Below, piece after piece: positions 4,813-50,551 of a stretch of DNA of 64,000 nt. The first letter of the stretch is position 1. Each line of letters starts with the position of its first letter. A program made the position numbers and the translations under genes. A model generated the notes under the pieces. That model was not told where the DNA came from. It saw nothing but the letters and a program-made list of their open reading frames with translations, and did no database searches. Source of the stretch: Stutzerimonas stutzeri (GTDB lineage: Bacteria > Pseudomonadota > Gammaproteobacteria > Pseudomonadales > Pseudomonadaceae); contig NZ_JAMOIC010000003.1 in NCBI RefSeq assembly GCF_024448895.1, positions 289,793 through 353,792 of the forward strand, given 5' to 3'.

Positions 4813-4877
4813 TGTGGCCTCTGTCCCGTAACGCCCCAAAACGAGATCAGATCGTGGTGGTCACCCGCAAACAATGG

Positions 4878-4922
4878 ATGAATGTCATCAAGGCCCTTGC
4901 CCGTTGGCGCTGGCGCGCCTGA
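4878..4922 (+). CDS. trpL: trpE leader peptide (host Trp-sensing leader)
   Basis: A 14-codon ORF encoding [14 protein letters not shown], ending 71 bp before the trpE start. Two Trp codons sit near the end, separated by one Arg, as expected of a leader peptide that senses charged tRNA-Trp. Control of trpE and of trpGDC by attenuation is established in P. putida. The leader Leu/Ala codons CTTGCC can pair with GGCAAG downstream of the stop, but I do not see a clear hairpin followed by a T-run, so the way the signal is read out is uncertain. A very similar peptide occurs at 47911-47955, inside the prophage. Confidence 0.75.
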
Positions 4923-4993: not shown

Positions 4994-6478
4994 ATGACCC
5001 GCGAAGAATTCTTGCGTTTGGCCGCTGAAGGCCACAACCGCATCCCCCTGTCGTTCGAGACCCTCGCCGACTTCGATACACCGTTAACGCTCTATCTCAA
5101 ACTCGCCGACGCACCCAATTCCTACTTGCTCGAGTCGGTACAGGGCGGGGAAAAGTGGGGCCGCTATTCGATCATCGGCCTGCCATGCCGCACCGTGCTG
5201 AGGGTGCAGGATCATGACATCAGCGTCACCACCGACGGTGTCGAGATCGAACGCTGCCAGGTCGAAGACCCGCTGGCTTTTGTCGAGGCCTTTCAGCAGC
5301 GTTATCGCGTAGCGCCGGTCGACGGCCTGCCGCGCTTCAACGGTGGCCTGGTGGGCTATTTCGGTTATGACAGCGTGCGTTACGTCGAACGCAAGCTGGC
5401 GACCTGTCCCAACCCCGACCCGCTGGGCACGCCCGATATCCTGCTGATGGTGTCCGATGCGGTGGTGGTGTTCGACAATCTTGCCGGCAAGCTGCACTGC
5501 ATCGTGCTGGTCGATCCGTCGCAGCCTGACGCCTACGAGGCGGGGCAGGCGAAGCTGCAAGCGCTGCGGGAAAAGCTGCGTCAGCCGATCACGCCGCGCC
5601 TCGGCCTTGATTTCGAGGCAGGCGCTGGCGTCGAGCCGACGTTCCGCTCCAGCTTCAGTCGTGACGACTATGAGCAGGCAGTCCACCGTATCAAGGACTA
5701 CATCCTCGCCGGCGATTGCATGCAGGTAGTGATCTCCCAGCGCATGTCGATCCCGTTCAAGGCGGCGCCGATCGACTTGTACCGTGCGCTGCGCTGCTTC
5801 AATCCGACGCCCTATATGTACTTTTTCAACTTCGGCGATTTCCACGTGGTGGGATCGTCGCCGGAAGTACTGGTGCGAGTTGAGGAGGGCCTGGTCACGG
5901 TTCGCCCCATCGCCGGCACCCGCCCGCGGGGCGCCAACGAGGAAGCCGACCTGGCGCTGGAGCAGGATCTGCTCAGCGACGCCAAGGAGCTGGCCGAACA
6001 CCTGATGCTGATCGATCTGGGGCGCAACGACGTCGGGCGCGTGGCTGAGCATGGTTCCGTGCGGCTGACTGAAAAGATGATCATCGAGCGCTATTCCAAC
6101 GTCATGCACATCGTCTCCAACGTCACCGGTCAGCTCAAAGCGCCGCTGACGGCCATGGATGCGCTGCGCGCGATTCTTCCAGCCGGCACCTTGTCCGGTG
6201 CGCCGAAGATCCGCGCGATGGAAATCATCGACGAGCTGGAACCTGTAAAGCGCGGCGTATACGGCGGCGCAGTTGGCTATCTGGCCTGGAACGGCAACAT
6301 GGACACGGCGATCGCGATACGTACCGCGGTAATCAAGGATGGCGAGCTTCACGTTCAAGCCGGCGCCGGCATCGTTGCTGATTCGCAGCCAGCACTGGAA
6401 TGGGAAGAAACGCTCAATAAACGCCGCGCCATGTTCCGCGCGGTGGCCCTGGCCGAATGCGACCAGCAGGAGAACTGA
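4994..6478 (+). CDS. trpE: anthranilate synthase component I
   Basis: 494 residues, the normal length. It makes anthranilate from chorismate with TrpG supplying ammonia. The N-terminal domain holds the LLES tryptophan-feedback motif (45-48). The C-terminal chorismate-binding domain has [31 protein letters not shown] and [17 protein letters not shown]. The ATG at 4994 is preferred over an upstream in-frame ATG because conserved TrpE sequence begins there ([10 protein letters not shown]). AGGAGA close to its stop is the ribosome site for the gene that originally followed (trpG), now cut off by the prophage. Confidence 0.96.
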
Positions 6479-6480
6479 TC

Positions 6481-6500
6481 ATGTTGCTGATGCTCGATAA
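6481..6500 (+). other. attL core (first 20 bases of trpG)
   Basis: ATGTTGCTGATGCTCGATAA, identical to 48082-48101. It directly follows the trpE stop (TGA, two bases, then ATG), with the native trpG ribosome site AGGAGA still in place on the left. A short hybrid frame (22 codons, beginning MLLMLDNHHW, stop at 6547-6549) now starts here from that strong site; it is a by-product of integration. Confidence 0.9.
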
Positions 6501-6617: not shown

Positions 6618-6663
6618 GCGGGTATCGTTGCGGGTATCAACCGAATGATACCCGCATACCCGC
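6618..6663. repeat. putative integrase arm-type sites, left side
   Basis: GCGGGTATC occurs at 6618-6626 and 6630-6638, and its inverse at 6647-6655 and (8 of 9 bases) 6656-6663. The two direct copies are 12 bp apart. The same motif pair with the same 12-bp spacing lies near attR (48009-48029). Repeats of this type beside P4-family integrase att sites usually bind the integrase N-terminal domain. The block runs up to the int start codon and leaves no room for a normal ribosome site, so Int may also control its own gene. This role is inference. Confidence 0.6.
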
Positions 6664-6666
6664 ACC

Positions 6667-7842
6667 ATGCCCCTAACCGACGTAAAGATCAGGCAGGCCA
6701 AGCCAGGTGCTGCTGCGCTCAAGCTCACCGACAGCGGCGGGCTCTATCTCGAGGTTCGCCCGAACGGTTCGAAGCTGTGGCGGTACCGCTATCGTATTGC
6801 CGGAAAGGAAAACGTCTTTGCGCTAGGTGCGTACCCGCAAGTCACCTTGGCTGACGCGCGTACGGAGCGCGACGTTGCTCGTGAGCACGTGAAAGCCGGA
6901 CGGCACCCTTCGCATGTACGCCAGACGGAGAAAGCGCAGCAGCTGGCCTCGAACCGCAACACGTTTAAGGCGGTGGCTGAAGAGTGGATCGATGAGCGGC
7001 TGGCAGCTCGGACAGAGGCCTATAGGCGCCAGGCGCGGCGGGTATTCGAAGCGGAGGTGTACCCGCGCATTGGGCGTTTGCCGATGCGGGAGATTACGGC
7101 AGCGCATGTGTTGGACATCCTGACTCGGATGAGCAAGCGCGGTGCCACTGCGTACGCATTGCTTGTGCGGCAATGGATCTCCGCCGTGTTCCGGTTCGGT
7201 GTCGCGACGCTGCGCGCTGATGCTGACCCAGCCGCGGCGCTGAAAGGTGCGATTCAGCGGAAGCCGGTAAATCACTCAAAGCCGATGGCTGAGGCTGATC
7301 TCGCTAAGTTTTATCGCGCGTTGGCCGACTATAAAGGGCATCGAGTCACAGTGATCGCTCTGTACTTGCTACCAATGCTGTTTACTCGCACGGTGGAGCT
7401 GCGTTGCGCCAGGTGGTCAGAGTTCGATTTGGACGGCGCGGTTTGGGAGATACCAGCGGAGCGGATGAAGATGCGGCGCAAGCACCTAGTGCCTTTGCCG
7501 CGCCAGGCGGTGGATCTGTTGCGGGAGCTTCGGCGAATTACAGCGGGTGAGCTGTTATTTCCTGGGCTGCGTCATCCAGACAAACCGATCAGTGCGACAA
7601 CCCTGAATAGGGCGCTGGAGTACCTCGGCATGGAGGGCTGGCATTGTCATGACTTCCGCGCTACGGCCTCGACGCATCTTTACGAGTCGGGCCGCTGGCG
7701 AGGCGAGGTGATCGAGCTGCAGCTTGCGCATGTGGAACGGAGCAGCGCCCGTGCGGCGTATAACCATGCGCAGTACTTGGAGGAGCGAGGTGCATTGATG
7801 CAGCTTTGGGCAGACTACCTGGCATCTTTCGCTGCCGCTTAA
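6667..7842 (+). CDS. int: tyrosine-type integrase, P4 family
   Basis: 391 residues. The N-terminal arm-binding domain (LTDVKIRQAKPG..LTDSGGLYLEV) is typical of P4-like integrases. The catalytic set is visible: R241 (FTRTVELR), H328 and R331 in HCHDFR, H355 in LAH, and Tyr365 in AAYNHAQY. It should recombine attP with the start of trpG. The ATG at 6667 fits the family N-terminus although no Shine-Dalgarno is seen; the upstream bases are taken by GCGGGTATC repeats. Most P4-like integrases use tRNA genes, so a protein-coding target is less common. Confidence 0.95.
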   Translation: MPLTDVKIRQAKPGAAALKLTDSGGLYLEVRPNGSKLWRYRYRIAGKENVFALGAYPQVTLADARTERDVAREHVKAGRHPSHVRQTEKAQQLASNRNTFKAVAEEWIDERLAARTEAYRRQARRVFEAEVYPRIGRLPMREITAAHVLDILTRMSKRGATAYALLVRQWISAVFRFGVATLRADADPAAALKGAIQRKPVNHSKPMAEADLAKFYRALADYKGHRVTVIALYLLPMLFTRTVELRCARWSEFDLDGAVWEIPAERMKMRRKHLVPLPRQAVDLLRELRRITAGELLFPGLRHPDKPISATTLNRALEYLGMEGWHCHDFRATASTHLYESGRWRGEVIELQLAHVERSSARAAYNHAQYLEERGALMQLWADYLASFAAA

Positions 7843-8112
7843 GGGATTGCAATTGATTGCAATTTATCAAGGCGATAGCGTCTGCTATGGATTGGTTGTA
7901 GCGTTTGGTGTCGTAAAGTCTACGAAACTACAGAGCTGTGAGCCAGTCTACGATATGTGTGCCGAACGTCTGACGACACGTTCAGAGACGCATAAATAGC
8001 TAGCGTGACTGTCACGCGTATTGTTAAATACGCAACGTACAACGAGTTCTAGCTTGTGTGAGAAGGGTCTTCTCAGAGCTACAAACGTTGAAAACTGGCC
8101 TTTTTTCTCACC
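7843..8112. other. non-coding stretch downstream of int with ATTGCAATT repeat
   Basis: No gene seen. Right after the int stop there are two tandem copies of ATTGCAATT (7846-7854 and 7856-7864), which also read as a 7-bp inverted repeat TTGCAAT-TG-ATTGCAA. It could be a small operator, but nothing nearby tells what would bind it. The rest is somewhat A+T-rich compared with the phage genes. Confidence 0.35.
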
Positions 8113-8136
8113 AACCACGCATCGTCGTGGTTTTTT
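8113..8136 (+). terminator. intrinsic terminator after int
   Basis: Stem ACCACG/CGTGGT (8114-8119 with 8126-8131), six-base loop, followed by a run of T. It lies between int and the toxin pair, on the strand of both. Confidence 0.75.
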
Positions 8137-8228
8137 GCGCCCTGATCAAAGGGCTATAGTGAATTTAGGGCTGGGATCCAGCGGTGCTGGATCATGAGCA
8201 AACCGGCTGTGCCGGAAAGGAGAGAGTC

Positions 8229-8399
8229 ATGGGCAATGCATTACCGAAAGCTGACCGTGTTTATATACCGCCGCGCGACAAGTCTCGTGTAGCAAAGGCG
8301 CGTCCGGCGGAAGGCTATTACGACGTCCAGCTAAACAAGGCTTTTTGCGTTGCTTTCCATCGTTATGAGAAAGCAATGGATGACCTATCCAAGGTTTGA
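8229..8399 (+). CDS. small protein, probable antitoxin of the Doc-type toxin
   Basis: 56 residues, starting MGNALPKADRVYIPPRDKSR. The ATG at 8229 follows a strong ribosome site (GGAAAGGAGAGAG). I do not recognise a domain; it is not an obvious Phd. It ends 4 bp before the Doc-family gene, which suggests an antitoxin role by position only. The sequence is basic at the N-terminus and may bind DNA or the toxin. Confidence 0.55.
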   Translation: MGNALPKADRVYIPPRDKSRVAKARPAEGYYDVQLNKAFCVAFHRYEKAMDDLSKV

Positions 8400-8403
8400 G
8401 TGA

Positions 8404-8907
8404 ATGAAAGGTAGCGGAGCACACATCGAGGTCTTCGAAGGTATCCGTTACCTAAACGTTGACGCGCTCATTCACATCAACGAACAGCTGATCCTCCAGC
8501 AGACGCCGGATGAGCGAATTGGGGTGCTGAAAAGGGGAGAACTGTCCTCTTCTCAGCAGCGGCCCGCGCAGCATCGCTACTATGCGCAAGAAGACGATAT
8601 GTTTGTTCTTGCTGCCGTGCTGATCGAAAGCCTGATCCAAAATCACCCATTTGAAAATGCAAATAAGCGCACCGCCGCGATGGCAGGTGCTATTTTTTTG
8701 CTGATCAATGGTTACGAGTTAACTGCTCCCGAGCATGAGCTTGTAGAGATCATGGTTGGCGTAGCGCGTCATGAATACACCGTTGAGGAGCTTGAGAGCT
8801 GGCTTGCAATGTGGAGTCGGGACTTCGACACTGCGCTTCTCAATGAGCGCAACGCCTGGGTTAGCCTCTTTGGCGACGTCAATCTGGTTGCAGCGTCGGA
8901 CAGCTGA
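8404..8907 (+). CDS. Fic/Doc family toxin
   Basis: 167 residues. The Fic core motif is HPFENANKRTAA (81-92), with the ANKR form seen in Doc, the P1 kinase toxin that phosphorylates EF-Tu, rather than the GNGR form of AMP-transferases. In Doc the residue after x is acidic (HxFxDANKR); here that place is Asn, with Glu just before it, so the metal-binding residue may be shifted or lost. It lies directly after a 56-residue gene, giving a two-gene cassette between int and the AlpA-like gene that could stabilise the prophage or act against other phages. Confidence 0.8.
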   Translation: MKGSGAHIEVFEGIRYLNVDALIHINEQLILQQTPDERIGVLKRGELSSSQQRPAQHRYYAQEDDMFVLAAVLIESLIQNHPFENANKRTAAMAGAIFLLINGYELTAPEHELVEIMVGVARHEYTVEELESWLAMWSRDFDTALLNERNAWVSLFGDVNLVAASDS

Positions 8908-19576: not shown

Positions 19577-21237
19577 TGGATTGGAATGATCTGCATGTGA
19601 GCTGGGGGCCTGAGGCCGTCCAGCAGCAGCTGTCGGCTGCGCTGGCTGATGGTGGGCCTTCCCGGACCCCATCCGAGGCCGAAGCCGCGGCGCCGGGCGG
19701 CTCCTCCGACAACGGGGGGCAGGGGGCGGGGCTGACCAGTGAACAGGTGTTGCGGCGCTTTGCTCTGGTGGAAGGCACCACGCAGGTGTGGGACCAGGAC
19801 AAGAAGACCGTGATGAAGAAGACGGCCTTCGAGGCGCTGGTGAGCAAGCCGCTGGCGAAAACATGGCTGGATGACACGGCGAAGAAACTGATCGGCGCCG
19901 ATGCGGTGCGCGAGATCGAGCAGGCGCGGCGTATGGCGGGCAAGAAGGCCGGCGCGCTGGGTATGCCGCCGACCGAGCGCTATGTGTATATCGACGGCAC
20001 CAAGGATGTGTGGGACCGCGAGAAGAAGCGGCGCATTCCGGAAGGCGCGGTGAAGATGGCGCTGGGTGACGCCTATGCGCTGTGGCTGAACTCAGCCGAG
20101 CGGCGGACGGTGGATGTGGATCACATCGTGTTCGACCCGGCGATGCGGTTGGATCCGGCCGTGTACATCAATACGTTTGAAGGTTTGCCGCTGGAACCTG
20201 TGCGGGACGATGAGGCGTGCGCGAACCTGCGTTGGTTGATCTCGTTTCTGTGCAACCACGATGAAGAGGCCTTCAACTGGCTGAAGAAGTGGTTGGCCTA
20301 CCCGCTGCAGCACCCGGGCGCGAAGATGGATACGGCGGTGCTGGCCCATTCGATCACTGAGGGCTCGGGCAAGTCGCTGCTGTTTGCCGATGCGTTCGGG
20401 CAGTTGTTTGGGCCGTATGCGGCGACGGTGGGGCAGACGCAGTTGGAGTCGTCGTTCAACGCGTGGCAGAGCCGGAAGCTGTGGGCCGTGTTCGAGGAGG
20501 TTGTCTCGCGTGACCAGCGTTATAACCAGGTGGGCAAGATCAAGCATCTGATCACCGGCAAGACGGTGCGGATGGAATCGAAGTTCATCAACGGGTGGGA
20601 AGAGGCGAACCATATGAATGCGGTGTTCCTCTCGAATGAGATCCTGCCGTGGCCGATCAGCGACAGTGACCGGCGCATGCTGGTGGTGTGGCCGCAGGAG
20701 ACGTTGCCGCCTGCACGACAGAAGGCGATCGGCGCGGAGTTGAAGGGCAACGGGGTGGCAGCGCTGTATGGCTGGCTGCTGTCGTTGGACCTGGGCGAGT
20801 TCGATCAGCGCACGCGACCACCGCACACCGATGCGCGACAGCGGCTGGTGGCGTTGAGCCGGGCAGGGTGGCAGACCTTCCTCTATCAATGGCAGAGCGG
20901 TGAGCTTGGGCTGGACCTGTGGGGCGCGTGCCTGTCGACGGACCTGTATGCGTTGTTCCTCGAGTGGTGCCAGCGCAACAAGGAACACGCGATGAGCCAG
21001 ACGAAGTTCAGCCTGTTCATCAGTGCCGAGGTGGAGAAGACGCGCTCGATCCCCTGGACGAATGGCAGCAATCGAAGCTTTGGGGCGTTCTTCTTCCCCA
21101 GCGACCCGGGATCTTCCCTGCCCCCATCTCTATCCGCAGCTGCGCTTGGCCAGCACGTGGCGGAGTGGCGCGGGAAGGCGCGCAAGGCGGGCTGGGACGT
21201 GGACGGGTGGGACCACCTGAAGGCGGCTGCAGCATGA
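19576..21237 (+). CDS. phage replicative helicase / D5-like primase-helicase
   Basis: 553 residues. Walker A is TEGSGKSLLF (261-270), followed by an acidic Walker-B-like WAVFEEV and RRMLVVWP later, the layout of SF3/DUF5906 viral-type helicases. It probably unwinds the origin and works with the primase upstream. The C-terminus is overlapped by the ATG of the repeat-rich ORF, which may be the origin it acts on. Confidence 0.78.
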   Translation: MDWNDLHVSWGPEAVQQQLSAALADGGPSRTPSEAEAAAPGGSSDNGGQGAGLTSEQVLRRFALVEGTTQVWDQDKKTVMKKTAFEALVSKPLAKTWLDDTAKKLIGADAVREIEQARRMAGKKAGALGMPPTERYVYIDGTKDVWDREKKRRIPEGAVKMALGDAYALWLNSAERRTVDVDHIVFDPAMRLDPAVYINTFEGLPLEPVRDDEACANLRWLISFLCNHDEEAFNWLKKWLAYPLQHPGAKMDTAVLAHSITEGSGKSLLFADAFGQLFGPYAATVGQTQLESSFNAWQSRKLWAVFEEVVSRDQRYNQVGKIKHLITGKTVRMESKFINGWEEANHMNAVFLSNEILPWPISDSDRRMLVVWPQETLPPARQKAIGAELKGNGVAALYGWLLSLDLGEFDQRTRPPHTDARQRLVALSRAGWQTFLYQWQSGELGLDLWGACLSTDLYALFLEWCQRNKEHAMSQTKFSLFISAEVEKTRSIPWTNGSNRSFGAFFFPSDPGSSLPPSLSAAALGQHVAEWRGKARKAGWDVDGWDHLKAAAA

Positions 21238-21575
21238 GTACGCTCAAGCGTGTGTTGGGTTGTGTTGGGTTGTGTCGGGTTGGTTTTGCGAACCCAACAC
21301 AGGCGCACGGCATGAACGGCGGGGCTTTGCGGGTGCTGTGTGGGGTGTGTTGGGTTTGGCATCGCGCGCGCGCATGCGCTGCGGTTTCGCTTGTTCCTTC
21401 TGACGGTGAAGCAAAAATTCTCTATGCGAGGACTGAAAAACCCAACAAACCCAACACACTCAACACAGATGCTTCGAAAGCACTGATCTATATGGGTTTT
21501 AACTGTGTTGGGTTTGTGTTGGGTTGGGGTTTTTGTGTTGGGTTGGGTTCGGCGGGGGAGAAGAGCCATGATTGA
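21234..21575 (+). CDS. repeat-encoded ORF overlapping the putative origin
   Basis: 113 codons, coupled by ATGA to the helicase stop and overlapping the next start. The protein is dominated by VLGCVGL, GVCWVWH and FVLGWGFCVGLG, simply the translation of TGTTGGGTT repeats. No domain recognised. Both ends being coupled argues that it is at least translated through; whether the product matters, or only keeps ribosomes moving across an origin, is open. Confidence 0.45.
   Translation: MSTLKRVLGCVGLCRVGFANPTQAHGMNGGALRVLCGVCWVWHRARACAAVSLVPSDGEAKILYARTEKPNKPNTLNTDASKALIYMGFNCVGFVLGWGFCVGLGSAGEKSHD
21253..21544. repeat. TGTTGGGTT iteron-like repeats, putative replication origin
   Basis: Six exact direct copies (starting 21253, 21263, 21348, 21506, 21517, 21536) and three exact inverted copies (21291-21299, 21439-21447, 21448-21456), plus near copies. 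They are placed just after the primase-helicase genes, the usual site of a phage origin. They form two clusters around a more A+T-rich middle (about 21400-21500). Confidence 0.7.
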
Positions 21576-22056
21576 GGCGGTGGAGGCGTTGATGATGCAT
21601 TGGGCTGAGCGGTGCCGTGGCGGCCTGGGTGGTCCGGGCGCGGGTAGTTCGTCGCCGCTGGCGGTGGCGATGCAGTACGGGATGATCCCTACTGGCAGCC
21701 GTTCCACGGTGGGGCTGGCTGGGGCTGAGGATCGGGCGGCTGAGGAAGTGGACGCGGCAATCGGCAGCATCAAGCAGGCGGGCATCGTGCAGGACCGTAA
21801 GCTGGCGAAGGCGTGGCGGCTGGCGGGCAACACCACCCGCCCACCGTTCTGCCTGGAGACGCAGCTGGTGAAGCTGGCGATGGTGCGCTATCTGCCGGAC
21901 CCGATCCCAACCGTTGCACAGCAGATGCGGCGCGTGCGGATCGGCTCTGAGCGGACCTATCACGAGCGGGTGCAAAAGCTGCACGAGCTAGTGAAGGCTG
22001 AGCTGGAACGCCGTTCACGGATGCAGCGGGTGCATGGTGGGCGTTACGTCGCGTAA
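21568..22056 (+). CDS. putative Q-like late gene regulator
   Basis: 162 residues. The outline resembles antitermination protein Q of the PF06530 type: an N-terminal helix with Trp (LMMHWAERC), a SSPLAVAM segment, an acidic AAEEVDAAIGSIK region, and a C-terminal helix-turn-helix (IPTVAQQMRRVRIGSERTYHERVQKLHELV). Position supports it: last early gene, followed by about 200 non-coding bases and a strong terminator before the lysis and head genes. Similarity is by pattern only. Confidence 0.55.
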   Translation: MIEAVEALMMHWAERCRGGLGGPGAGSSSPLAVAMQYGMIPTGSRSTVGLAGAEDRAAEEVDAAIGSIKQAGIVQDRKLAKAWRLAGNTTRPPFCLETQLVKLAMVRYLPDPIPTVAQQMRRVRIGSERTYHERVQKLHELVKAELERRSRMQRVHGGRYVA

Positions 22057-22262
22057 ATGTCGGTCTGGTGTTCGCCCGGTATAGAGCTAGGATTCAGGCA
22101 GGATTAAGCCGACATTCGGCAGCGGCGTTAAATCGCTGTTTACGCCTCCGCAGTTGGGGGGTACAAAGCGCATAACAGGTCAGAGCAGCGCCAAGGCGAT
22201 GACCGAAACGAGCCTAACTTGCTGTGTCAGGCAAAGGCCGGTTCCCCCGCCGGTCACCCCTC
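22057..22262. other. non-coding region after Q-like gene (candidate late promoter)
   Basis: About 206 bases with no gene, then a terminator. In lambda this place holds pR', the Q binding site and tR'. I could not pick a convincing promoter. A short GC hairpin CCGG...CCGG (about 22236-22251) lies near the end. Confidence 0.35.
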
Positions 22263-22294
22263 AAAGCCCCGCCATCGTGCGGGGCTTTGTCTTT
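22263..22294 (+). terminator. strong terminator, tR'-like
   Basis: AAAGCCCCGC (22263-22272), loop CATCGT, GCGGGGCTTT (22279-22288), then GTCTTTTT. It stands between the Q-like gene and the late genes. Confidence 0.8.
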
Positions 22295-22297
22295 TTC

Positions 22298-22657
22298 TTA
22301 GGCCGCCGCAGAACCATCGGAATCTAACTTGGGCTTCGCCTTTGAAAAGGGCGCGAGTATTAAACCTGGAACGATGGCGCCGTAGAAAATGGCGTCGATG
22401 ATGTAAACGAACAGCATCACCACTTCTTTGCGTGTGATTGGGTCGGGGCTGACGTAGAACGCTTGGATTTGCCAGATCGATATGGCACATACAGCGATGG
22501 CGAAGAGCGTGAACAATACATAAAGGGTTGGACCAACCACACCTTTTACCCAGCCGACCAGCAGCTTCCTTTGCTCTGCATTGGTGTGCCGCATAGCGAC
22601 GTCAATGATCATCGCAACTGCGCCAAGCGCCCCTAGCAGTTTTAAAACGAGTTCCAT
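22298..22657 (-). CDS. small membrane protein, opposite to late genes
   Basis: 119 residues with about three membrane segments (LVLKLLGALGAVAMIIDVAM; VGPTLYVLFTLFAIAVCAISIW; VVMLFVYIIDAIFYGAIVPGLILAPF). It runs against the late operon and is divergent from the holin gene. No family recognised. Orientation and membrane nature suggest a lysogenically expressed gene, for example superinfection exclusion, but this is only a guess from context. Confidence 0.55.
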   Translation of the reverse strand: MELVLKLLGALGAVAMIIDVAMRHTNAEQRKLLVGWVKGVVGPTLYVLFTLFAIAVCAISIWQIQAFYVSPDPITRKEVVMLFVYIIDAIFYGAIVPGLILAPFSKAKPKLDSDGSAAA

Positions 22658-22733
22658 CTCTACGAGCTCCGCATGGTTGAGCTTGCATCTTAAACGGCTC
22701 GGTCTGACGGGCACCACTGGCGAAACACACCTG

Positions 22734-23066
22734 ATGAACGATAACCACCAGACGCTGGCGGATGCGCCGCTGTGGGCTGTAATCCTGGGATTCGTCTTGG
22801 CTGCACTCAGCGGTGAGATGTGGCGCGGTGACAAGGCTGGCCTGTCGGGCTGGGCGTTGATCAAGCGGATCGTGCTGCGCGCAGGCGCTTCTGCCGTCTT
22901 TGGCATGGCGACGTTTCTGCTACTGCTCGCCATGGGTAGCGCGATGCTGGCAGCCGTCGCGATTGGTTGTGTCATCGCCACGATGGGCGCGGACATGGCG
23001 AGCAGCCTATATGAGCAGTGGCTGAAGCGCAGGGCGGGCATTAGCGATGCGCCAAGGGCAGAGTGA
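22734..23066 (+). CDS. phage holin
   Basis: 110 residues, starting MNDNHQTLADAPLWAVILGFVLAALSG. Membrane segments at about 13-31, a middle amphipathic part, and AGASAVFGMATFLLLLAMGSAMLAAVAIGCVIATMG; the C-terminus is charged (LYEQWLKRRAGISDAPRAE). This is the size and layout of holins that precede the terminase genes in Pseudomonas phages. The endolysin is at the far end of the late operon. Confidence 0.65.
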   Translation: MNDNHQTLADAPLWAVILGFVLAALSGEMWRGDKAGLSGWALIKRIVLRAGASAVFGMATFLLLLAMGSAMLAAVAIGCVIATMGADMASSLYEQWLKRRAGISDAPRAE

Positions 23067-23424
23067 TAAGCGCCGGGGCAGCAGCACGGCGCGCGGTTAC
23101 GGATACCGCTGGCAGCTGGCTCGTGAGGATCACTTACGGCGGCAGCCGTTCTGCTCGATGTGCAGCACTAATACCAGGCCAGTCCTGGCACTGATCGTTG
23201 ACCACGTCATCGCGCCGCGGCTGAAGGAAGCCAAGGCAAGCGGTGATGCTGAGCAGCTCGCGCGTGCCTGGAAGCTGTTCTGGTCTCGGGACAACTGGCA
23301 GTCGCTGTGCAAGCACTGTCACGACTCGGTCAAGCAGCGCCTTGAGAAATCGGGGCGGCTCGCCGGGTGTGACTCGACCGGCCGCCCGCTGGACCCCCGC
23401 CACCACTGGCACCGCCCTGGGTAG
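23047..23424 (+). CDS. HNH endonuclease
   Basis: 125 residues. FCSMCSTNTRPVLALIVDHVIAPRL and FWSRDNWQSLCKHCHDSVKQ carry the HNH residues and two CxxC zinc pairs. In HK97-like phages an HNH protein next to terminase is needed for cos cleavage. Overlaps the holin end by 20 bp. Confidence 0.85.
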   Translation: MRQGQSDKRRGSSTARGYGYRWQLAREDHLRRQPFCSMCSTNTRPVLALIVDHVIAPRLKEAKASGDAEQLARAWKLFWSRDNWQSLCKHCHDSVKQRLEKSGRLAGCDSTGRPLDPRHHWHRPG

Positions 23425-23541
23425 GGGGGGCGAAAACATTCGCGCCCGCATCCTTCTAGACCGTTCCCCCATCTCCGTTCGCAACGGCGGGAAAAATGGA
23501 GAGGGGGGGTATAGGCCGAAAAGACCCCTTCGAGGTTTTAT
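23425..23541. other. candidate cos region
   Basis: 117 non-coding bases between the HNH and small-terminase genes, with G/C runs and an imperfect inverted repeat (CCCCCATCTCC about 23465 against GGAGAGGGGGG about 23500). Position is that of cos in HK97-like phages. No direct proof. Confidence 0.35.
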
Positions 23542-24066
23542 ATGTCCGGAAATGCTAACTCGGGTCGCTCGGGCCATCCGCCGCACCTGCACTTGCTGCA
23601 AGGAAACCCGAGCAAGAAGAACACCAGCCAGTTGCTTGCGGAAGTGCAGGAGCCGGCAGTGCCGGTCGCGGCGCCGCCGAAGCCGGAGTGGCTCAGTGCA
23701 GAGGCTGCAGCCGAATGGGATCGCGTCGTTGAAGACCTGCTTACCCTCGGCTGGATCAGCAAACTGGACATGATGGCGCTGGCCACCTACTGCGAAGCGG
23801 TAGCCGATTGGCAGCGCTTCCGCCGCTTGATCGCGGATCAGAACGCTAAGGCCGATTGCAGTGGCGACGTTCAAACCTTCGCTACCGGCGCCAAGCAAAT
23901 AAGCGTCTGGCGGCAGCTCGCCAACGATGCAGAGAAGCGAGCCAACGCCGCCGGCGCTCTGTTTGGTTTCTCGCCGATGGCCCGCCGCAACATGAAGGCG
24001 GCGGCCCCGCAAGGTGAGTTATTCCCAAATGAACAACGAGACGCAGCCGCCAAGTACTTCAGTTGA
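23542..24066 (+). CDS. terminase small subunit (P27 family)
   Basis: 174 residues. Typical start SGRSGHPPHLHLLQGNPSKK, then PEWLSAEAAAEWDRVVEDLLTLGWISKLDMMALATYCEAVADWQRFRR, as in P27-type small terminases that recognise the packaging site. It overlaps the large subunit gene. Confidence 0.88.
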   Translation: MSGNANSGRSGHPPHLHLLQGNPSKKNTSQLLAEVQEPAVPVAAPPKPEWLSAEAAAEWDRVVEDLLTLGWISKLDMMALATYCEAVADWQRFRRLIADQNAKADCSGDVQTFATGAKQISVWRQLANDAEKRANAAGALFGFSPMARRNMKAAAPQGELFPNEQRDAAAKYFS

Positions 24067-25852
24067 TCGCGTCACCGCCTTCTCCCATGCGGTGCTGGCC
24101 GGTGAGATTGTCGCCGGGCCGGATGTGCGCAACGCCTGCAAGCGCCATCTGCGCGACCGGGACGCCGCCGAACTGCGCGGGCTGGTGTGGGATCAGGAAG
24201 CCGCGGAAAAGGCCATCGGCTTCTTCGAAGAAGTGCTCTGCCTCAACGGCGGAGAATACGAGGGCGAGCCCTTCGTGCTCGCGCCCTGGCAGGCGTTCGT
24301 GATCGGTAGCCTGTTCGGCTGGTACACGGTCGACGGCTACCGTCGCTTTCGGATGGCCTATATCGAGACCGGAAAGGGGTCGGGCAAGTCGCCTCTAGTG
24401 GGAGGCATTGGGCTTTACGGATTGGTCGCCGACGGCGAGCAGCGCGCCGAGGTCTATGCCGCCGCCACCAAACGCGACCAGGCGATGATCCTGTTCCGCG
24501 ATGCGGTGAGCATGGTCAACATGTCGCCGGCCCTGGTGCGGCGGTTGGTCCAGTCGGGCCGGGACGAAAAGGTCTGGAACCTGTTCTACCCGAACACGAA
24601 TAGCTTCTTCCGGCCGATCAGCTCGGACGATGGCCAGTCAGGGCCACGCCCGCACATCGGCCTGCTCGACGAGCTGCACGAGCACAAGAGCGCGACCGCA
24701 GTGAACATGATGCGCGCCGGTACCAAGAACCGGCGGCGCGCAATGATCGTGATGATCACCAACAGCGGGAGCGACAAGAACAGCGTTTGCGGGCAATACC
24801 ACGAGCTGGGCAAACGCATCTGTGCCGGCATCGAGGACAACGACAGCCTGTTCGCCTTCATCTGCTCATTAGATGATGGTGACGACCCGCTTACCGATGA
24901 GAGCTGCTGGGCGAAGGTCAACCCCTCGCTCGATTTCGTGGCCGATCCGGAGCGGCAGACAGAGGGCATCCCAGGCCGCAAATACCTGCGTGAACAGGTG
25001 GCGGAGGCACGAGGCCTGCCGGCGAAAGAAGCGGTGGTGCGGCGCCTGAACTTCTGCCAGTGGACGCAGGCAGACAACCCCTGGATTGGCTGGGACGTGT
25101 GGAGTGCTGCCGAAGAGCGCGTGCCCATGCGGCTGCTGCGCGATCGCCCAGCGGTGGCGGGGCTCGACCTCTCCAGTACGACCGACCTCACGGCTTTCTC
25201 GCTGCTGTTCTACCCGACCGAGGCCGACCCGCACTGGCGGCTGCTGCCGTACTTCTGGATTCCTGAGTATCAGCTTGAAGATCGCGAGCGGCGCGACAAG
25301 GTGCCGTACAGCGTATGGATCAAGGACGGGCATTTGGAAACCACCCCGGGCAAGGCCATCAGCAAGCTGCATGTGCTGCGCCGGTTGCAGACCATCTGCG
25401 ATTACTTCCAGGTGCACCAAATTGCCTATGACCGCTGGCGGATCGAGGACTTGCGCGAGCTGATGAACGAGCACGGCATCACCCTCCCTGAGCTCACGCC
25501 GTTCGGCCAAGGCTTCAAGGACATGGGCCCGGCGGTAGACGAGTTCGAGCGGCGCCTGCTGGGCACCGTTCCGGATGAGGAGGTGATAGACCTCGACCCG
25601 GCCGACTACCAGCTGATATCCACCGAGACGGCTGAGGTGGAAACCCTCCGGCACGACGGCAATCCCGTTTTGACCTGGAACGCCGGCAACGCCATCACCG
25701 TCTCCGACCCGGCCGGCAACCGAAAGGTAGACAAACAGAAGGCCATTGGCCGCATAGACGGCATCGTCGCCGCGATCATGGCAACTGGTATCAGCGGTGC
25801 GGGCACGCTGCACAGCGGCACCTCAATCTACGAAGAAGGCGCAGGTATATGA
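24029..25852 (+). CDS. terminase large subunit
   Basis: 607 residues from the ATG at 24029. ATPase domain with Walker A GKGSGKS (115-121) and Walker B LLDE (212-215); nuclease domain with the first Asp in AGLDLSSTTD (377-386) and the last acidic part near RIDGIVAAIMA. It packages DNA into proheads as a motor with TerS. HK97/P27-type. Confidence 0.95.
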   Translation: MNNETQPPSTSVDRVTAFSHAVLAGEIVAGPDVRNACKRHLRDRDAAELRGLVWDQEAAEKAIGFFEEVLCLNGGEYEGEPFVLAPWQAFVIGSLFGWYTVDGYRRFRMAYIETGKGSGKSPLVGGIGLYGLVADGEQRAEVYAAATKRDQAMILFRDAVSMVNMSPALVRRLVQSGRDEKVWNLFYPNTNSFFRPISSDDGQSGPRPHIGLLDELHEHKSATAVNMMRAGTKNRRRAMIVMITNSGSDKNSVCGQYHELGKRICAGIEDNDSLFAFICSLDDGDDPLTDESCWAKVNPSLDFVADPERQTEGIPGRKYLREQVAEARGLPAKEAVVRRLNFCQWTQADNPWIGWDVWSAAEERVPMRLLRDRPAVAGLDLSSTTDLTAFSLLFYPTEADPHWRLLPYFWIPEYQLEDRERRDKVPYSVWIKDGHLETTPGKAISKLHVLRRLQTICDYFQVHQIAYDRWRIEDLRELMNEHGITLPELTPFGQGFKDMGPAVDEFERRLLGTVPDEEVIDLDPADYQLISTETAEVETLRHDGNPVLTWNAGNAITVSDPAGNRKVDKQKAIGRIDGIVAAIMATGISGAGTLHSGTSIYEEGAGI

Positions 25853-26022
25853 AACTGGTAGTGCTTTCGTGGCTCGCCGGGCTGATGGGCTTCGGCCTGC
25901 TGGTAGCCGGTGTTGCTCTGCTGAATATCCCCGCAGCCTTCATCGTGGCGGGACTCGGGCTGCTCGGCTGGGCATACCTGGCCGATCGCGCAGCCGCTCA
26001 ACTCAAAACCAAAGGGGGCTGA
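25849..26022 (+). CDS. small membrane protein between terminase and portal
   Basis: 57 residues with two hydrophobic helices (VVLSWLAGLMGFGLLVAGVALL; AAFIVAGLGLLGWAYLA). It overlaps the terminase stop by 4 bp, and its stop lies just before the portal start. Similar tiny membrane proteins occur at this place in other HK97-like phages; role unknown. Confidence 0.65.
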   Translation: MKLVVLSWLAGLMGFGLLVAGVALLNIPAAFIVAGLGLLGWAYLADRAAAQLKTKGG

Positions 26023-47035: not shown

Positions 47036-47737
47036 CTACAGCACCGGGTCGCTGATCCGCTCAATGAGGCGAGCCCCTTCGTTCCGCACATTGCCGACTG
47101 CTGCTGGAACGGGATACCAGTCGAACTCATCGACCGCCAGGCCATGCTCGATCGCGATATCTTCAGCCTCGTTCGGATCAAGCTCGGGGTCCAGCCAATG
47201 CGCGGCGCAGTCAGGGGATAGCACAAGCGGACGCCGGTCGTGAATGTCCAGCATTCCGGCACCGCTGCTCGCCGTGATGATTACGAACCCGTCACCGTCG
47301 CGTGGCTCAGCCATACCGCCGCGCTGGAACTGGCCGATCGCTGCGAAGAAGCAGGGCTCGTCCGTCTTCAGCTTGATCAGGTAGGGCTGCTTGATCTTCG
47401 GATTGGCCTCGTCCTTCTTCCATTCATACCAGCCATCAGCCGGCACGATCGCACGGCCGCTCTTCCAAACGTCGCGGAAGAACTTCGAGGTGGCTGCAGT
47501 CTCTACCCTGGCGTTGATCGCCGGCGGCCTTTTCCCCTGCGCCCAGAACGGGGCGTATCCCCACTTGACCGGCTCCATGCGCAGCCCGTCGTCGTCCTGA
47601 TGCAGCAGCTGGACCCGGGATTGTGGCGGCACGTTGTAGCGCCCGAGTGGTTCAGGGCTCAGCCCGCCGATAGTCATCTGCCCCAGCGCTTCCATATATT
47701 CGACTGGGTACCGGTACTGCGTGATTCTTCCGCACAT
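47036..47737 (-). CDS. SOS response-associated peptidase (YedK/HMCES, SRAP)
   Basis: 233 residues from the ATG at 47737 so that Cys is residue 2 (MCGRITQY), which crosslinks to abasic sites in single-stranded DNA after Met removal. Other SRAP residues: Asn in INARVET, Glu in PADGWYEWKK, His in DIHDRRPLVLS. It could guard phage or host DNA during replication, or interfere with abasic-site-forming defence. No LexA box seen upstream. It lies against attR, away from the lytic genes. Confidence 0.88.
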   Translation of the reverse strand: MCGRITQYRYPVEYMEALGQMTIGGLSPEPLGRYNVPPQSRVQLLHQDDDGLRMEPVKWGYAPFWAQGKRPPAINARVETAATSKFFRDVWKSGRAIVPADGWYEWKKDEANPKIKQPYLIKLKTDEPCFFAAIGQFQRGGMAEPRDGDGFVIITASSGAGMLDIHDRRPLVLSPDCAAHWLDPELDPNEAEDIAIEHGLAVDEFDWYPVPAAVGNVRNEGARLIERISDPVL

Positions 47738-47910
47738 TAGGTTTTCTCGCCGAGGTGTCCTGCCAACTGAGAAATTCAAACCGAGCAGTCGTTCGTTTCT
47801 GGTGAGGCTTTGGGCGTGAACGGTATAGTGATAATGTACCGATCAGCCTGAGTACCCTCTACGCAGGTCCGTTAACGAGATATCCAGTGAAGTTCAGCGA
47901 CTCCCTCCTA
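47738..47910. other. intergenic region upstream of prophage trp leader
   Basis: About 170 bases between the divergent SRAP gene and the leader peptide; must hold the promoter that now drives trpGDC. Best guess: TTGGGC (47810-47815), 16 bp, TAATGT (47832-47837), with TATAGT and GATAAT close by. None is ideal. Confidence 0.35.
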
Positions 47911-47955
47911 ATGCGAGTGATTAAAGGGCATGCCCGTTGGCGATGGCGTGCGTGA
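47911..47955 (+). CDS. prophage-borne trp leader peptide ahead of trpGDC
   Basis: A 14-codon ORF encoding MRVIKGHARWRWRA. Same length as the trpE leader at 4878-4922 ([14 protein letters not shown]), 11 of 14 residues the same, both with the Trp-Arg-Trp end and TGA. 33 of 45 bases match. Three codons differ in amino acid; the other six differing codons change only the third base, so the peptide has been kept while the DNA drifted. It lies inside the prophage, 126 bp before the trpG ATG. A GGGCATGCCC palindrome is within it. Confidence 0.78.
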   Translation: MRVIKGHARWRWRA

Positions 47956-48008
47956 CTCATTGCTCCGAAGACTGCATTGCTTTGACGCTAAGCCCAGCTA
48001 CAAAAATA

Positions 48009-48029
48009 GCGGGTACTTAAGCGGGTATC
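48009..48029 (+). repeat. putative integrase arm-type sites, right side
   Basis: GCGGGTAC(T) at 48009 and GCGGGTATC at 48021-48029, 12 bp apart, as on the left (6618/6630). They lie between the leader peptide and trpG and overlap a small hairpin (CCC-A-GCTA / TAGCGGG, 47993-48013). Confidence 0.6.
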
Positions 48030-48081
48030 AGGAACAGGCGATTGCAGAGAAGTCTTTGTATATCAATAGGTTGGTGTGAAT

Positions 48082-48101
48082 ATGTTGCTGATGCTCGATA
48101 A
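48082..48101 (+). other. attR core (first 20 bases of trpG)
   Basis: ATGTTGCTGATGCTCGATAA, same as attL. It gives the ATG and next six codons of the restored trpG, so the protein is unchanged by integration. Confidence 0.9.
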
Positions 48102-48675
48102 CTACGATTCCTTTACCTACAACGTGGTGCAGTACCTCGGCGAACTGGGCGCGGATGTCAAAGTGGTGCGCAACGATGAGCTGAGCGTGGCGGAAATCGA
48201 AGCGCTGAACCCCGAACGCATCGTCGTTTCGCCCGGTCCCTGCACGCCGAACGAGGCGGGCGTATCACTGGAACTGATCCGTCACTTCGCTGGCAAACTG
48301 CCGATTCTTGGGGTCTGCCTTGGCCACCAGAGCATCGGCCAGGCTTTTGGCGGTGATGTGGTGCGTGCCCGGCAGGTGATGCACGGCAAGACCAGCCCGG
48401 TTCTACATGAGAACGCGGGTGTTTTTGCCGGATTGAACAATCCCCTGACCGTCACCCGTTACCACTCCCTGGTGGTCAAGCGCGAAACGCTACCTGACTG
48501 CCTGGAGATTACGGCGTGGACGCGCAAGGACGACGGCAGTGTCGATGAGATCATGGGGCTGCGGCATAAGACGCTGAACGTTGAGGGTGTCCAGTTTCAC
48601 CCCGAATCGATCATGACCGAGCAGGGCCACGAACTGTTCGCCAACTTTTTGAAGCAGACCGGAGGCGTGCGCTGA
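48082..48675 (+). CDS. trpG: anthranilate synthase component II (glutamine amidotransferase)
   Basis: 197 residues. Class I amidotransferase with Cys79 in GVCLGHQ and the His/Glu of [13 protein letters not shown]. It delivers ammonia from glutamine to TrpE. The ATG at 48082 is the att core; the in-frame GTG at 48076 is phage DNA and not needed. The ribosome site is now AGGTTGGTG from the prophage, weaker looking than the AGGAGA left beside trpE, and the distance to trpE is over 41 kb, so TrpE and TrpG are no longer made from one transcript. Confidence 0.96.
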
Positions 48676-49721
48676 TGGATATCAAGGAAGCCCTCAATCG
48701 CGTCGTTGGTCAGCTGGATCTGAGCACCGACGAAATGAAGGCGGTCATGCGCCAGATCATGACCGGTCAATGCACCGATGCCCAGATTGGCGCATTCCTT
48801 ATGGGCATGCGCATGAAGAGCGAAACAATCGATGAAATCGTCGGTGCTGTGCAGGTCATGCGCGAGCTTGCGGCACCTGTGCACTTCGATACCCATCGCC
48901 TGGTGGACACGTGTGGCACTGGTGGCGATGGGATGAACATTTTCAACGTGTCGACTGCTGCGGCCTTCGTGGTCGCTGCCGCGGGCGGCAAGGTCGCCAA
49001 GCATGGCAATCGCGCCGTATCGGGCAAGAGCGGTAGTGCTGATCTGCTTGAGGCTGCGGGCGTTTACCTTGATCTCACCCCTGAGCAGGTCGCACGTAGC
49101 GTCGATGCAGTCGGCGTCGGCTTCATGTTTGCGCCCGCGCATCACGGCGCAATGAAATTTGCCGCTGGCCCGCGACGAGAGTTGGGGCTTCGCACCCTGT
49201 TCAATATTCTTGGCCCGATGTCCAACCCGGCAGGGGTCAAGCACCAGGTACTTGGAGTGTTCAGCAAGGAACTGTGCCGGCCCATGGCTGAAGTGCTGGC
49301 CCGCCTGGGTAGCGAGCATGTACTGGTCGTGCACGCGCAGGATGGACTGGACGAAATCAGTCTGGCCGCGCCGACTTATGTTGCCGAATTGAACAAGGGC
49401 GAGATCAGCGAATACCGCATTCAGCCGGAGGACTTCGGCATCAAGAGCCAGAGCCTGATCGGTCTCAACGTAGAAGATGCGCAGGGCTCGCTGGTGTTGA
49501 TCCGAGATGCGTTGGGCCGGCGCAAGACCGAGAACGGTCAGAAAGCCGCAGACCTGATCGTCCTCAACGCCGGTGCTGCGCTTTATGCGGCGGATGTCGC
49601 GAGCAGCCTGAAGCAAGGCATCGAGATTGCTCATGATGCGCTGCACACGGGGCTGGCGCGCGACAAGCTCGAAGAATTGGTGTCCTTTACCGTGGTGTTC
49701 AAGCAGGAGAGTTCGCAATGA
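48675..49721 (+). CDS. trpD: anthranilate phosphoribosyltransferase
   Basis: 348 residues. [20 protein letters not shown] (PRPP-binding), [19 protein letters not shown] and [12 protein letters not shown] are the standard TrpD motifs. It joins anthranilate to PRPP. Start overlaps the trpG stop by 1 bp, end overlaps trpC by 4 bp. Confidence 0.97.
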
Positions 49722-50551
49722 GCGTGCCGACGGTTCTGGAAAAGATCATCACGCGCAAGCGTGAGGAAGTGAGTGAGCGCCGCGGTCGCATCGGATTGGC
49801 TGAGCTCGAAACAATGGCGGCCTCGGCGGACCCCGTTCGTGGTTTTGCGCAGAAGATTCAAGAGCAGGTTCGCAGCAAAAAACCGGCGGTCATTGCCGAG
49901 GTCAAGAAAGCCTCGCCTAGCAAGGGGGTGCTGCGCGAGGTTTTTCTGCCTGCTGACATCGCCAGAAGCTACGAGGCGGGCGGAGCGACCTGCCTGTCAG
50001 TGCTTACTGATATCGATTTCTTTCAGGGCGCCGATGAATACCTGCAGCAAGCTCGTGCAGCCTGCAAGCTACCAGTGATCCGCAAGGATTTCATGGTCGA
50101 TCCCTATCAGGTGATCGAGGCGAGGGCGCTAGGTGCGGATTGCATCCTGTTGATCGTTGCGGCGTTGGAAGATGGGCAGATGGCCGAACTGGCCGAGGTA
50201 GCGAAGGCCCAGGGGCTGGATGTGCTGGTGGAGGTGCATGATGGCGCGGAACTGGAACGGGCCATGCGTCTTGAGACGCCGCTCATCGGTATCAACAACC
50301 GTAACCTTCACACTTTTGAATTGAGCCTGGAGACCACGCTCGACCTGCTGCCGCGTATTCCCCGCGACCGACTGGTAGTGACTGAAAGCGGCATCCTTCA
50401 TCGCGCCGACGTGGAGCTGATGGAAATCAACGAAGTGCACGCATTCCTGGTCGGCGAGGCCTTCATGCGGGCTGAGCAGCCTGGAGTCGAGTTGCAGCGC
50501 CTGTTCTTCCCAGGCCGCGCAACGTCGCGGCCGGTGGCTGATCCAGACTGA
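49718..50551 (+). CDS. trpC: indole-3-glycerol phosphate synthase
   Basis: 277 residues. TIM-barrel motifs: [63 protein letters not shown]. Stand-alone TrpC without TrpF fusion, as in other pseudomonads. It is the last gene of trpGDC, followed by a terminator. Confidence 0.97.

Follow-up and report, generated by a model that had tools for sequence, protein, structure and literature searches.

The window (the whole stretch of DNA that was analysed, 64,000 nt) is from a Stutzerimonas-like genome and holds a 41.6-kb tailed prophage inserted in the first codons of trpG. Genes for integration, packaging, head, tail and lysis are all found among its proteins (eight ORFs of the window were scanned), which identifies it as a temperate tailed phage. 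The features of the locus are as follows.

4854-4922, plus strand: host trpE leader ORF; GTG start likely, the ATG at 4878 not being conserved in relatives
4994-6478, plus strand: trpE
6481-48081, plus strand: tailed temperate prophage (primase, terminase, portal, head, tape measure, tail fibre J, Rz; att cores)
6481-6500, plus strand: attL core, the first 20 bp of trpG, 2 nt past the trpE stop
6618-6663, plus strand: repeats GCGGGTA (6618, 6630) and TACCCGC (6649, 6657) beside attL, putative integrase arm sites
6667-7842, plus strand: integrase (Arm-DNA-bind_3/tyrosine recombinase), co-directional with the trp genes
47036-47719, minus strand: SOS-response-associated peptidase (SRAP), last long phage ORF before the leader; the listed ORF reaches 47779
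47810-47886, plus strand: presumed promoter/5' UTR with GGTATAGTGATAATGTACCG and a dyad CCTG...CAGG, similar in L003, L007, L009 and L219
47887-47955, plus strand: phage-borne trp leader ORF, 22 aa (VKFSDSLLMRVIKGHARWRWRA, then stop), probable GTG start; ATG at 47911
47966-47984, plus strand: small possible hairpin CGAAG-N9-CTTTG, 10 nt past the leader stop
48009-48027, plus strand: two GCGGGTA repeats with a 12-bp period between leader and trpG, putative arm sites
48082-48101, plus strand: attR core, first codons of trpG
48082-48675, plus strand: trpG, coding sequence intact
48675-50551, plus strand: two genes that we take to be trpD and trpC

Both ends of the prophage have the same att core of exactly 20 bp (ATGTTGCTGATGCTCGATAA). 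It lies inside the start of trpG, the reading frame is preserved and the sequence upstream of it is element-borne, as in the elements that rebuild the 5' end of dusA. The trpE stop precedes the left core by 2 nt, in agreement with the first-pass annotation, which had read from attL that trpG once began 2 bp past trpE. All three domains of the integrase (PF13356, PF22022 and PF00589) score above the cut-off, and the GCGGGTA repeats, which flank the core on the integrase side as well as on the leader side, may be its arm sites. A Fic/Doc-family gene is found near the integrase (8404-8907), in a stretch that matches the cultured P. aeruginosa phages Sirocco and LPPA56 at ∼71%.

The leader ORF is on the phage side of attR, 5' of the repeats. 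The first-pass annotation had described it as the peptide MRVIKGHARWRWRA encoded at 47911-47955 and had compared it with the host trpE leader at 4878-4922; we obtained the same figures (11 out of 14 residues identical; nine codons different, six of them synonymous with only the third base changed). A degenerate pattern of the leader peptide, with up to three mismatches, matches the window at these two leaders and nowhere else (the maximum in 100 shuffles was zero), and the exact pattern matches the same two places alone in the whole 5.39-Mb genome. The place and sequence of the ORF as first described are right, but ATG 47911 is probably an internal codon: we prefer the in-frame GTG at 47887, eight codons further 5', as the start, because the place of this GTG is kept in 13 out of 14 distinct element leaders, while the ATG is missing from three of the 14 (L137, L269 and L270) and also from host leaders (the trpE leaders of L114, L115 and L117, with QWTNVIK..., and the trpG leader of L115, with LLICLFK...). 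The host trpE leader extends in frame as well, up to GTG 4854 or 4857.

One mark of a trp attenuation leader of the Pseudomonas type is a short ORF, placed before a trp gene, in which Trp codons stand close together towards the end, and the phage ORF has this form. Such leaders were reportedly described for trpE and trpGDC of P. putida by Olekhnovich and Gussin in 2001; the likeness extends to the end of the peptide, which before Pseudomonas trpG reads ARWRWRA and then stop, as in the phage leader. The difference is that here the leader is carried by a phage and delivered to an operon without a trpG leader. The accessible part of one study of azithromycin-treated P. aeruginosa biofilms describes premature 3' ends beside a potential GTG-start uORF at trpGDC (PMC8297930).

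We used the joined trpE-end/trpG-start sequence as a query against 56 genomes of the genus, and 42 of them match it as a single stretch. In 29 out of 30 joined sites that were fetched, trpG starts 2 nt past the trpE stop, and such sites leave no room for a leader before trpG; in G028 the spacer is ∼77 nt long and has no leader. Eight genomes (G008, G023, G032, G037, G038, G039, G051 and G053) have ∼2.6 kb between trpE and trpG, encoding in G023 a GGDEF/EAL-like protein (recognised by eye), and all five of these that were fetched have a host trpG leader behind the insert, with a different, MRLFKAHARWRWRA-like peptide. These five loci (L113, L114, L115, L116 and L117, in G023, G037, G051, G053 and G008) thus have a separate host trpG leader and no phage. 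In five further genomes trpE and trpG are split by larger DNA (G000, G027, G033, G040 and G045); for G027, G040 and G045 an insertion is deduced since the trpE and trpG halves are on different contigs. Across 43 genomes with trpE and trpG adjacent, the exact leader pattern has one match per genome, except for G002 and G014 (none). A second exact match is found in none of the 42 joined genomes, so the proposal that the phage brought the leader survives the comparison with prophage-free relatives.

The leader is also found joined to the integrase, away from trp genes. In the IMG/VR contig L017, leader (6806-6844, a pattern match), repeats, core (7002), repeats and integrase (7185-8348) follow each other on one strand, no trpE or trpG motif is present in the 10.7 kb read, and the whole 25-kb record has a single core. 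This arrangement would be seen in attP and equally where two prophages adjoin in tandem, and because both place the leader within the element, the leader belongs to the element, as expected if it is phage DNA. In a Piscinibacter genome the leader-repeat-core junction is present as a tandem pair, one copy preceding an integrase and the next preceding trpG.

Two cultured phages share the backbone of the prophage, not its integrase. Phage PG1 is 83.9% identical over 87% of window positions 20000-26000 and vB_PstS-pAN 84.0% over 26% of the same segment (72.7% and 72.5%, respectively, at the Rz-SRAP end), whereas their integrases are only 22% identical to that of the window. Their SRAP-integrase interval has no leader, no GCGGGTA repeat and no trpG core; it contains a tRNA end (by eye) and another ORF with two separated Trp residues (RRWKWL), unlike the leader. 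Since these phages lack leader, repeat and core, the leader travels with the trpG-integration module and not with the phage backbone. When the leader region was compared with cultured phages at the DNA level, the start of the SRAP gene alone was matched. No leader was seen at either trpG-type junction of seven large fluorescens-type provirus contigs, whose ends are uninformative because trpG is absent from them too.

When GCGGGTA repeats were searched for together with the trpG start, viral contigs yielded 15 stretches and species genomes 95 (80 given as loci). This gave 97 sites including G000 and G033, and 93 after four with <320 nt upstream were dropped; to count as a leader, a short ORF had to contain W.?W towards its end and to lie in the interval from 90 to 320 nt upstream. 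Such an ORF is found at 36 of the 93 sites (32 out of 87 distinct windows): 11 out of 15 viral sites, 23 out of 76 genome-contig sites, G000 and G033. The same test was positive for 2/79, 1/74, 1/73 and 1/69 of the control windows further upstream, and 40 rounds of dinucleotide shuffling gave a mean of 1.9 and a maximum of seven sites, versus 36. The match at L206 (TPSTWWNSG) is probably due to chance, though counted among the 36, and stray W.W ORFs at L155, L165, L182, L189 and L210 are not claimed as leaders. In a draw of 398 Pseudomonadaceae genomes, nine have an arm and core site and seven of these have the leader (the draw partly overlaps the 93-site set).

The remaining 57 of the 93 sites (in Xanthomonas, Rhodanobacter, Oceanimonas, Azoarcus, Marinobacter and others) have no W.?W ORF in the interval searched, and neither do L267 and L268 (the other two Pseudomonadaceae sites) or the viral contig L136, which indicates that the leader is unnecessary for using the trpG site. 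Most sites outside Pseudomonas and Burkholderiales lack it, and elements in Marinobacter and Azoarcus are without a leader while Trp-rich ORFs precede trpE in their hosts; together with the two Pseudomonadaceae sites, this makes the leader an add-on of part of the element group. In L136 the element precedes a Pseudomonas-like trpG and has a one-Trp ORF (GTG...RPIDRWRGYR, then stop) at the place of the leader, possibly a decayed leader.

The element peptides are of at least two kinds, one ending in ARWRWRA and the other in WRWRKPSA, with a possible third in two other trpG islands. Most element peptides in Betaproteobacteria end in WRWRKPSA or a like sequence and lie 133-164 nt 5' of trpG. Seven out of eight Burkholderiales hosts (L256, L258 and L260-L264; not L259) have, 5' of trpE, an ORF with GAWPWR at or near its end, so the element peptide was not copied from that host ORF. 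Among 16 host trpE loci, eight have the core within 90 nt past the trpE stop and the other eight do not; the eight are listed here by host.

Core 90 nt or less past the trpE stop: Methylibium (L259), Rubrivivax (L262, L264), P. fluvialis (L245)
The same: Pseudomonas sp. A-1 (L244), Marinobacter (L247), two Azoarcus (L252, L254)

The peptide of the window phage belongs to the trpG-leader class (S.LLMR...) and differs from the trpE leader next to it (KQWMN...), of which it is no copy. In two genomes the element's leader can be compared with a severed leader of its own host. In G259 (aeruginosa group) the host trpG leader, VIHSTRIITSLLKAFARWRWRA, is severed at attL and the element leader, VIHLRSIITSLIKAFARWRWRA, is at attR; the two are alike at 60 out of 69 nt and 18 out of 22 residues (two synonymous and four non-synonymous codon differences), versus 11-12 out of 22 residues for three other host leaders in the comparison. 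In those genomes of the aeruginosa group that were read, ∼18 kb separate the trpE leader from the host trpG leader that follows it, and the G259 element inserts downstream of this trpG leader. In G066, with a fluorescens-type host leader, the severed host leader is MRVIKAHARWRWRA and the element leader MRVIKAHARWRWRT. The leader thus appears to track the host's own leader in at least one lineage (G259). The window phage has no close host-clade match among the host leaders compared (17/22 and 15/22 residues for Stutzerimonas-like, 16/22 for fluorescens-type and 10/22 for aeruginosa-group hosts). The first-pass annotation had suggested capture from a Pseudomonas whose trpGDC is separate; the class of the peptide and the match in G259 speak for this, while the source of the window phage's own leader is not singled out by a close match. 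Uptake from a Pseudomonas with a separate, attenuated trpGDC is the most likely origin.

At the element end abutting trpG, a Trp-Arg-Trp leader ORF, GCGGGTA repeats and identical first trpG codons are found in this order, and the arrangement recurs in related elements; the core is formed by the first 20 bp of trpG and divides a trpE-trpG(DC) operon in which, in most relatives, the genes are 2 nt apart. We consider it likely that the attachment module of this temperate phage includes a replacement control region for the trpG that it interrupts. That the phage brings a replacement control unit had been proposed at first sight of the window, and the comparison with joined empty sites, L017 and related elements favours it. 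In the lysogen, transcription would start within the phage, upstream of 47887. When charged tRNA-Trp is scarce, the ribosome would stall at codons 18 and 20 and transcription would proceed into trpGDC; when Trp is plentiful, the ribosome would reach the stop and transcription would end early. With attenuation of this kind at the phage leader, trpGDC would stay Trp-responsive and the lysogen prototrophic.

A hairpin after the stop is possible in many of the leaders (mean fold energy -8.7 versus -6.7 in shuffles) and weak in the window. In 15 Betaproteobacterial elements it has six pairs, with 93% of cells paired, and four two-sided changes (0 out of 500 shuffles as high), over two pairs (25 out of 500). 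The post-stop hairpin is not followed by a U-tract, nor the leader by an intrinsic terminator; termination may depend on Rho or proceed in another way. Rfam has no Trp_leader match in the window (at the gathering score) or in eight loci (E up to 1), and the sole Rfam match at the gathering score in the window is a gabT RNA motif (RF01738) at 1954-2015. A scan of 47600-48140 for consensus promoters and terminators gave one candidate of each, both located away from the leader, and no sigma-70 promoter before the leader. Pseudomonadaceae element copies resemble host trpG leaders, and nine out of 14 also share their promoter-like boxes: TTGCACCG or TTGCATCG upstream, then TACTGT or TAATGT (by eye). 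Window-type leaders lack this box and have GGTATAGTGATAATGTACCG in its place. The imperfect dyad 5' of the window leader (47847-47867, CCTG...CAGG around GTACCCTCTAC) may be a 5'-UTR hairpin or an operator; in L009 both arms are changed together relative to L007 and L219 (CCGAC/GTCGG versus GCCTG/CAGGC, by eye).

The unit might instead serve mainly the phage, its promoter and leader in the circular form being read through the core into the co-directional integrase. L017, with leader, core and integrase in order on one strand, fits this, as does the window, where the integrase starts 166 nt past the core on the leader's strand; but service to the phage does not explain why a Trp leader is used rather than any promoter, nor the matching to the host, and we regard it as rather unlikely to be the main role. 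It is compatible with a replacement control region for trpG, and both can hold. A combination of the two, which we offer tentatively as a rather unlikely possibility, is a promoter swap: one Trp-sensing unit would drive the integrase in the circular phage and trpGDC once integrated, and trpG-targeting elements of Proteobacteria would, on two or perhaps three occasions at the least, have gained Trp leaders unrelated to each other, keeping the split operon under Trp control. If so, Trp supply would bias the integration decision, integration would silence int as trpG takes its place, and int in the lysogen, directly 3' of trpE, could follow the host's Trp control.

Alternatively, the leader could be a passive relic of imprecise excision, no longer under selection. 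The first-pass annotation had argued from the third-base changes that the peptide, not just the DNA, is kept, and this holds for part of the leader. Positions 1 and 2 of the final codons are set by the expression with which leaders were found, and figures of 1.4, 1.8 and 5.4 pairwise differences at codon positions 1 to 3 are therefore inflated. Over codons 9-15, which the expression leaves free, 14 distinct Pseudomonadaceae element leaders differ pairwise by 1.3, 1.6 and 3.2 at the three positions in turn, and over codons 2-15 five window-type leaders differ by 1.0, 0.4 and 3.2; codons 2-8 of the same 14 leaders have no third-position bias (3.2, 2.6 and 2.8), and 12 Burkholderiales-type leaders have a weak one (5.4, 4.2 and 6.2). 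The parts without bias would suit a relic, as would the persistence of leaderless elements, the one-Trp ORF of L136 and the single Trp codon of L170, L210, L211 and L176 where relatives have two. A relic is nevertheless quite improbable, given the third-position bias that codons 9-15 and the window-type clade show, the unrelated peptide types at similar distances from trpG, the host matching in G259 and the absence of the leader from a similar phage backbone with another integrase.

It is very improbable that the leader is the host's own trpG leader with the phage inserted 5' of it: separate trpGDC genes with their own leader do exist (in the five fetched genomes with the 2.6-kb insert and in fluorescens-type and aeruginosa-group hosts), but here the core copy 2 nt past trpE at attL makes attB a joined operon; 42 out of 56 relatives have a joined site without leader, none of the 56 is prophage-free with this leader and the repeat-bearing spacer before trpG, the repeats shared with the integrase side sit between leader and trpG, the leader of L017 adjoins an integrase without a trp gene, and G066 and G259 each hold a severed host leader plus the element's own.

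Integrative and conjugative elements of the SXT/R391 family enter the 5' end of prfC and supply a new start and promoter; we know of no attenuator or leader peptide in them. The pyocin clusters between trpE and trpG of P. aeruginosa are fixed, not mobile. As in our prophage, phage-derived DNA separates trpE and trpG there, according to the accessible parts of two reports on these pyocin (tailocin) clusters (PMC7344871, PMC11577772). The closest likeness in how the target is treated is with dusA-specific integrases and islands, which, in the accessible part of their description, insert in the 5' end of the gene and replace its coding start, with putative -10/-35 motifs before and after insertion, so that the element supplies a new 5' sequence and the target gene can stay functional (PMC4482086). 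By the same source, dusA islands restore promoter motifs and the gene start, whereas the trpG phage adds a Trp-rich leader ORF and cuts a biosynthetic operon in two. No described phage that mends the operon it breaks with an amino-acid leader was known to the first-pass annotation, and we found no phage or island with a trp leader in the openly licensed part of the literature. That integrative elements can patch their target gene, at its coding start or its promoter, is known; here the patch looks like an amino-acid-responsive leader, and the element seems to keep a biosynthetic pathway regulated as well as expressed. Joined, severed and patched sites, with leaderless elements as controls, make a natural experiment on the fitness value of attenuation, and they suggest a route for leader peptides between species and for the survival of split trp operons.

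The possible third kind of peptide is found in G040 and G045 (both Stutzerimonas-like), where MARTASINVAQWWRFQ and MNFSATSNLRWWWRFS, each followed by a stop, precede trpG without GCGGGTA repeats, and a second small ORF after each leader reaches or nears trpG (all by eye). These WW(W)RF ORFs, recognised by eye, look like Trp leaders. The integrase of G045 is 43% identical to that of the window. The two ORFs have no match, with up to three mismatches, in a separate draw of 398 genomes from the phylum (G040 and G045 are outside this draw) and none by exact pattern in the viral contigs. The islands at L109 (G040) and at L111, L128 and L129 (G045) have no phage genes in the parts read, and their WWRFQ/WWWRFS ORFs have a possible hairpin over the stop. 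The 97 arm and core sites, leader-bearing and leaderless together, share a consensus ..AaAtCAA.agG.Tag ∼10-22 nt before trpG (57 out of 97 fit the strict form), which could be a new ribosome-binding site or an integrase site.
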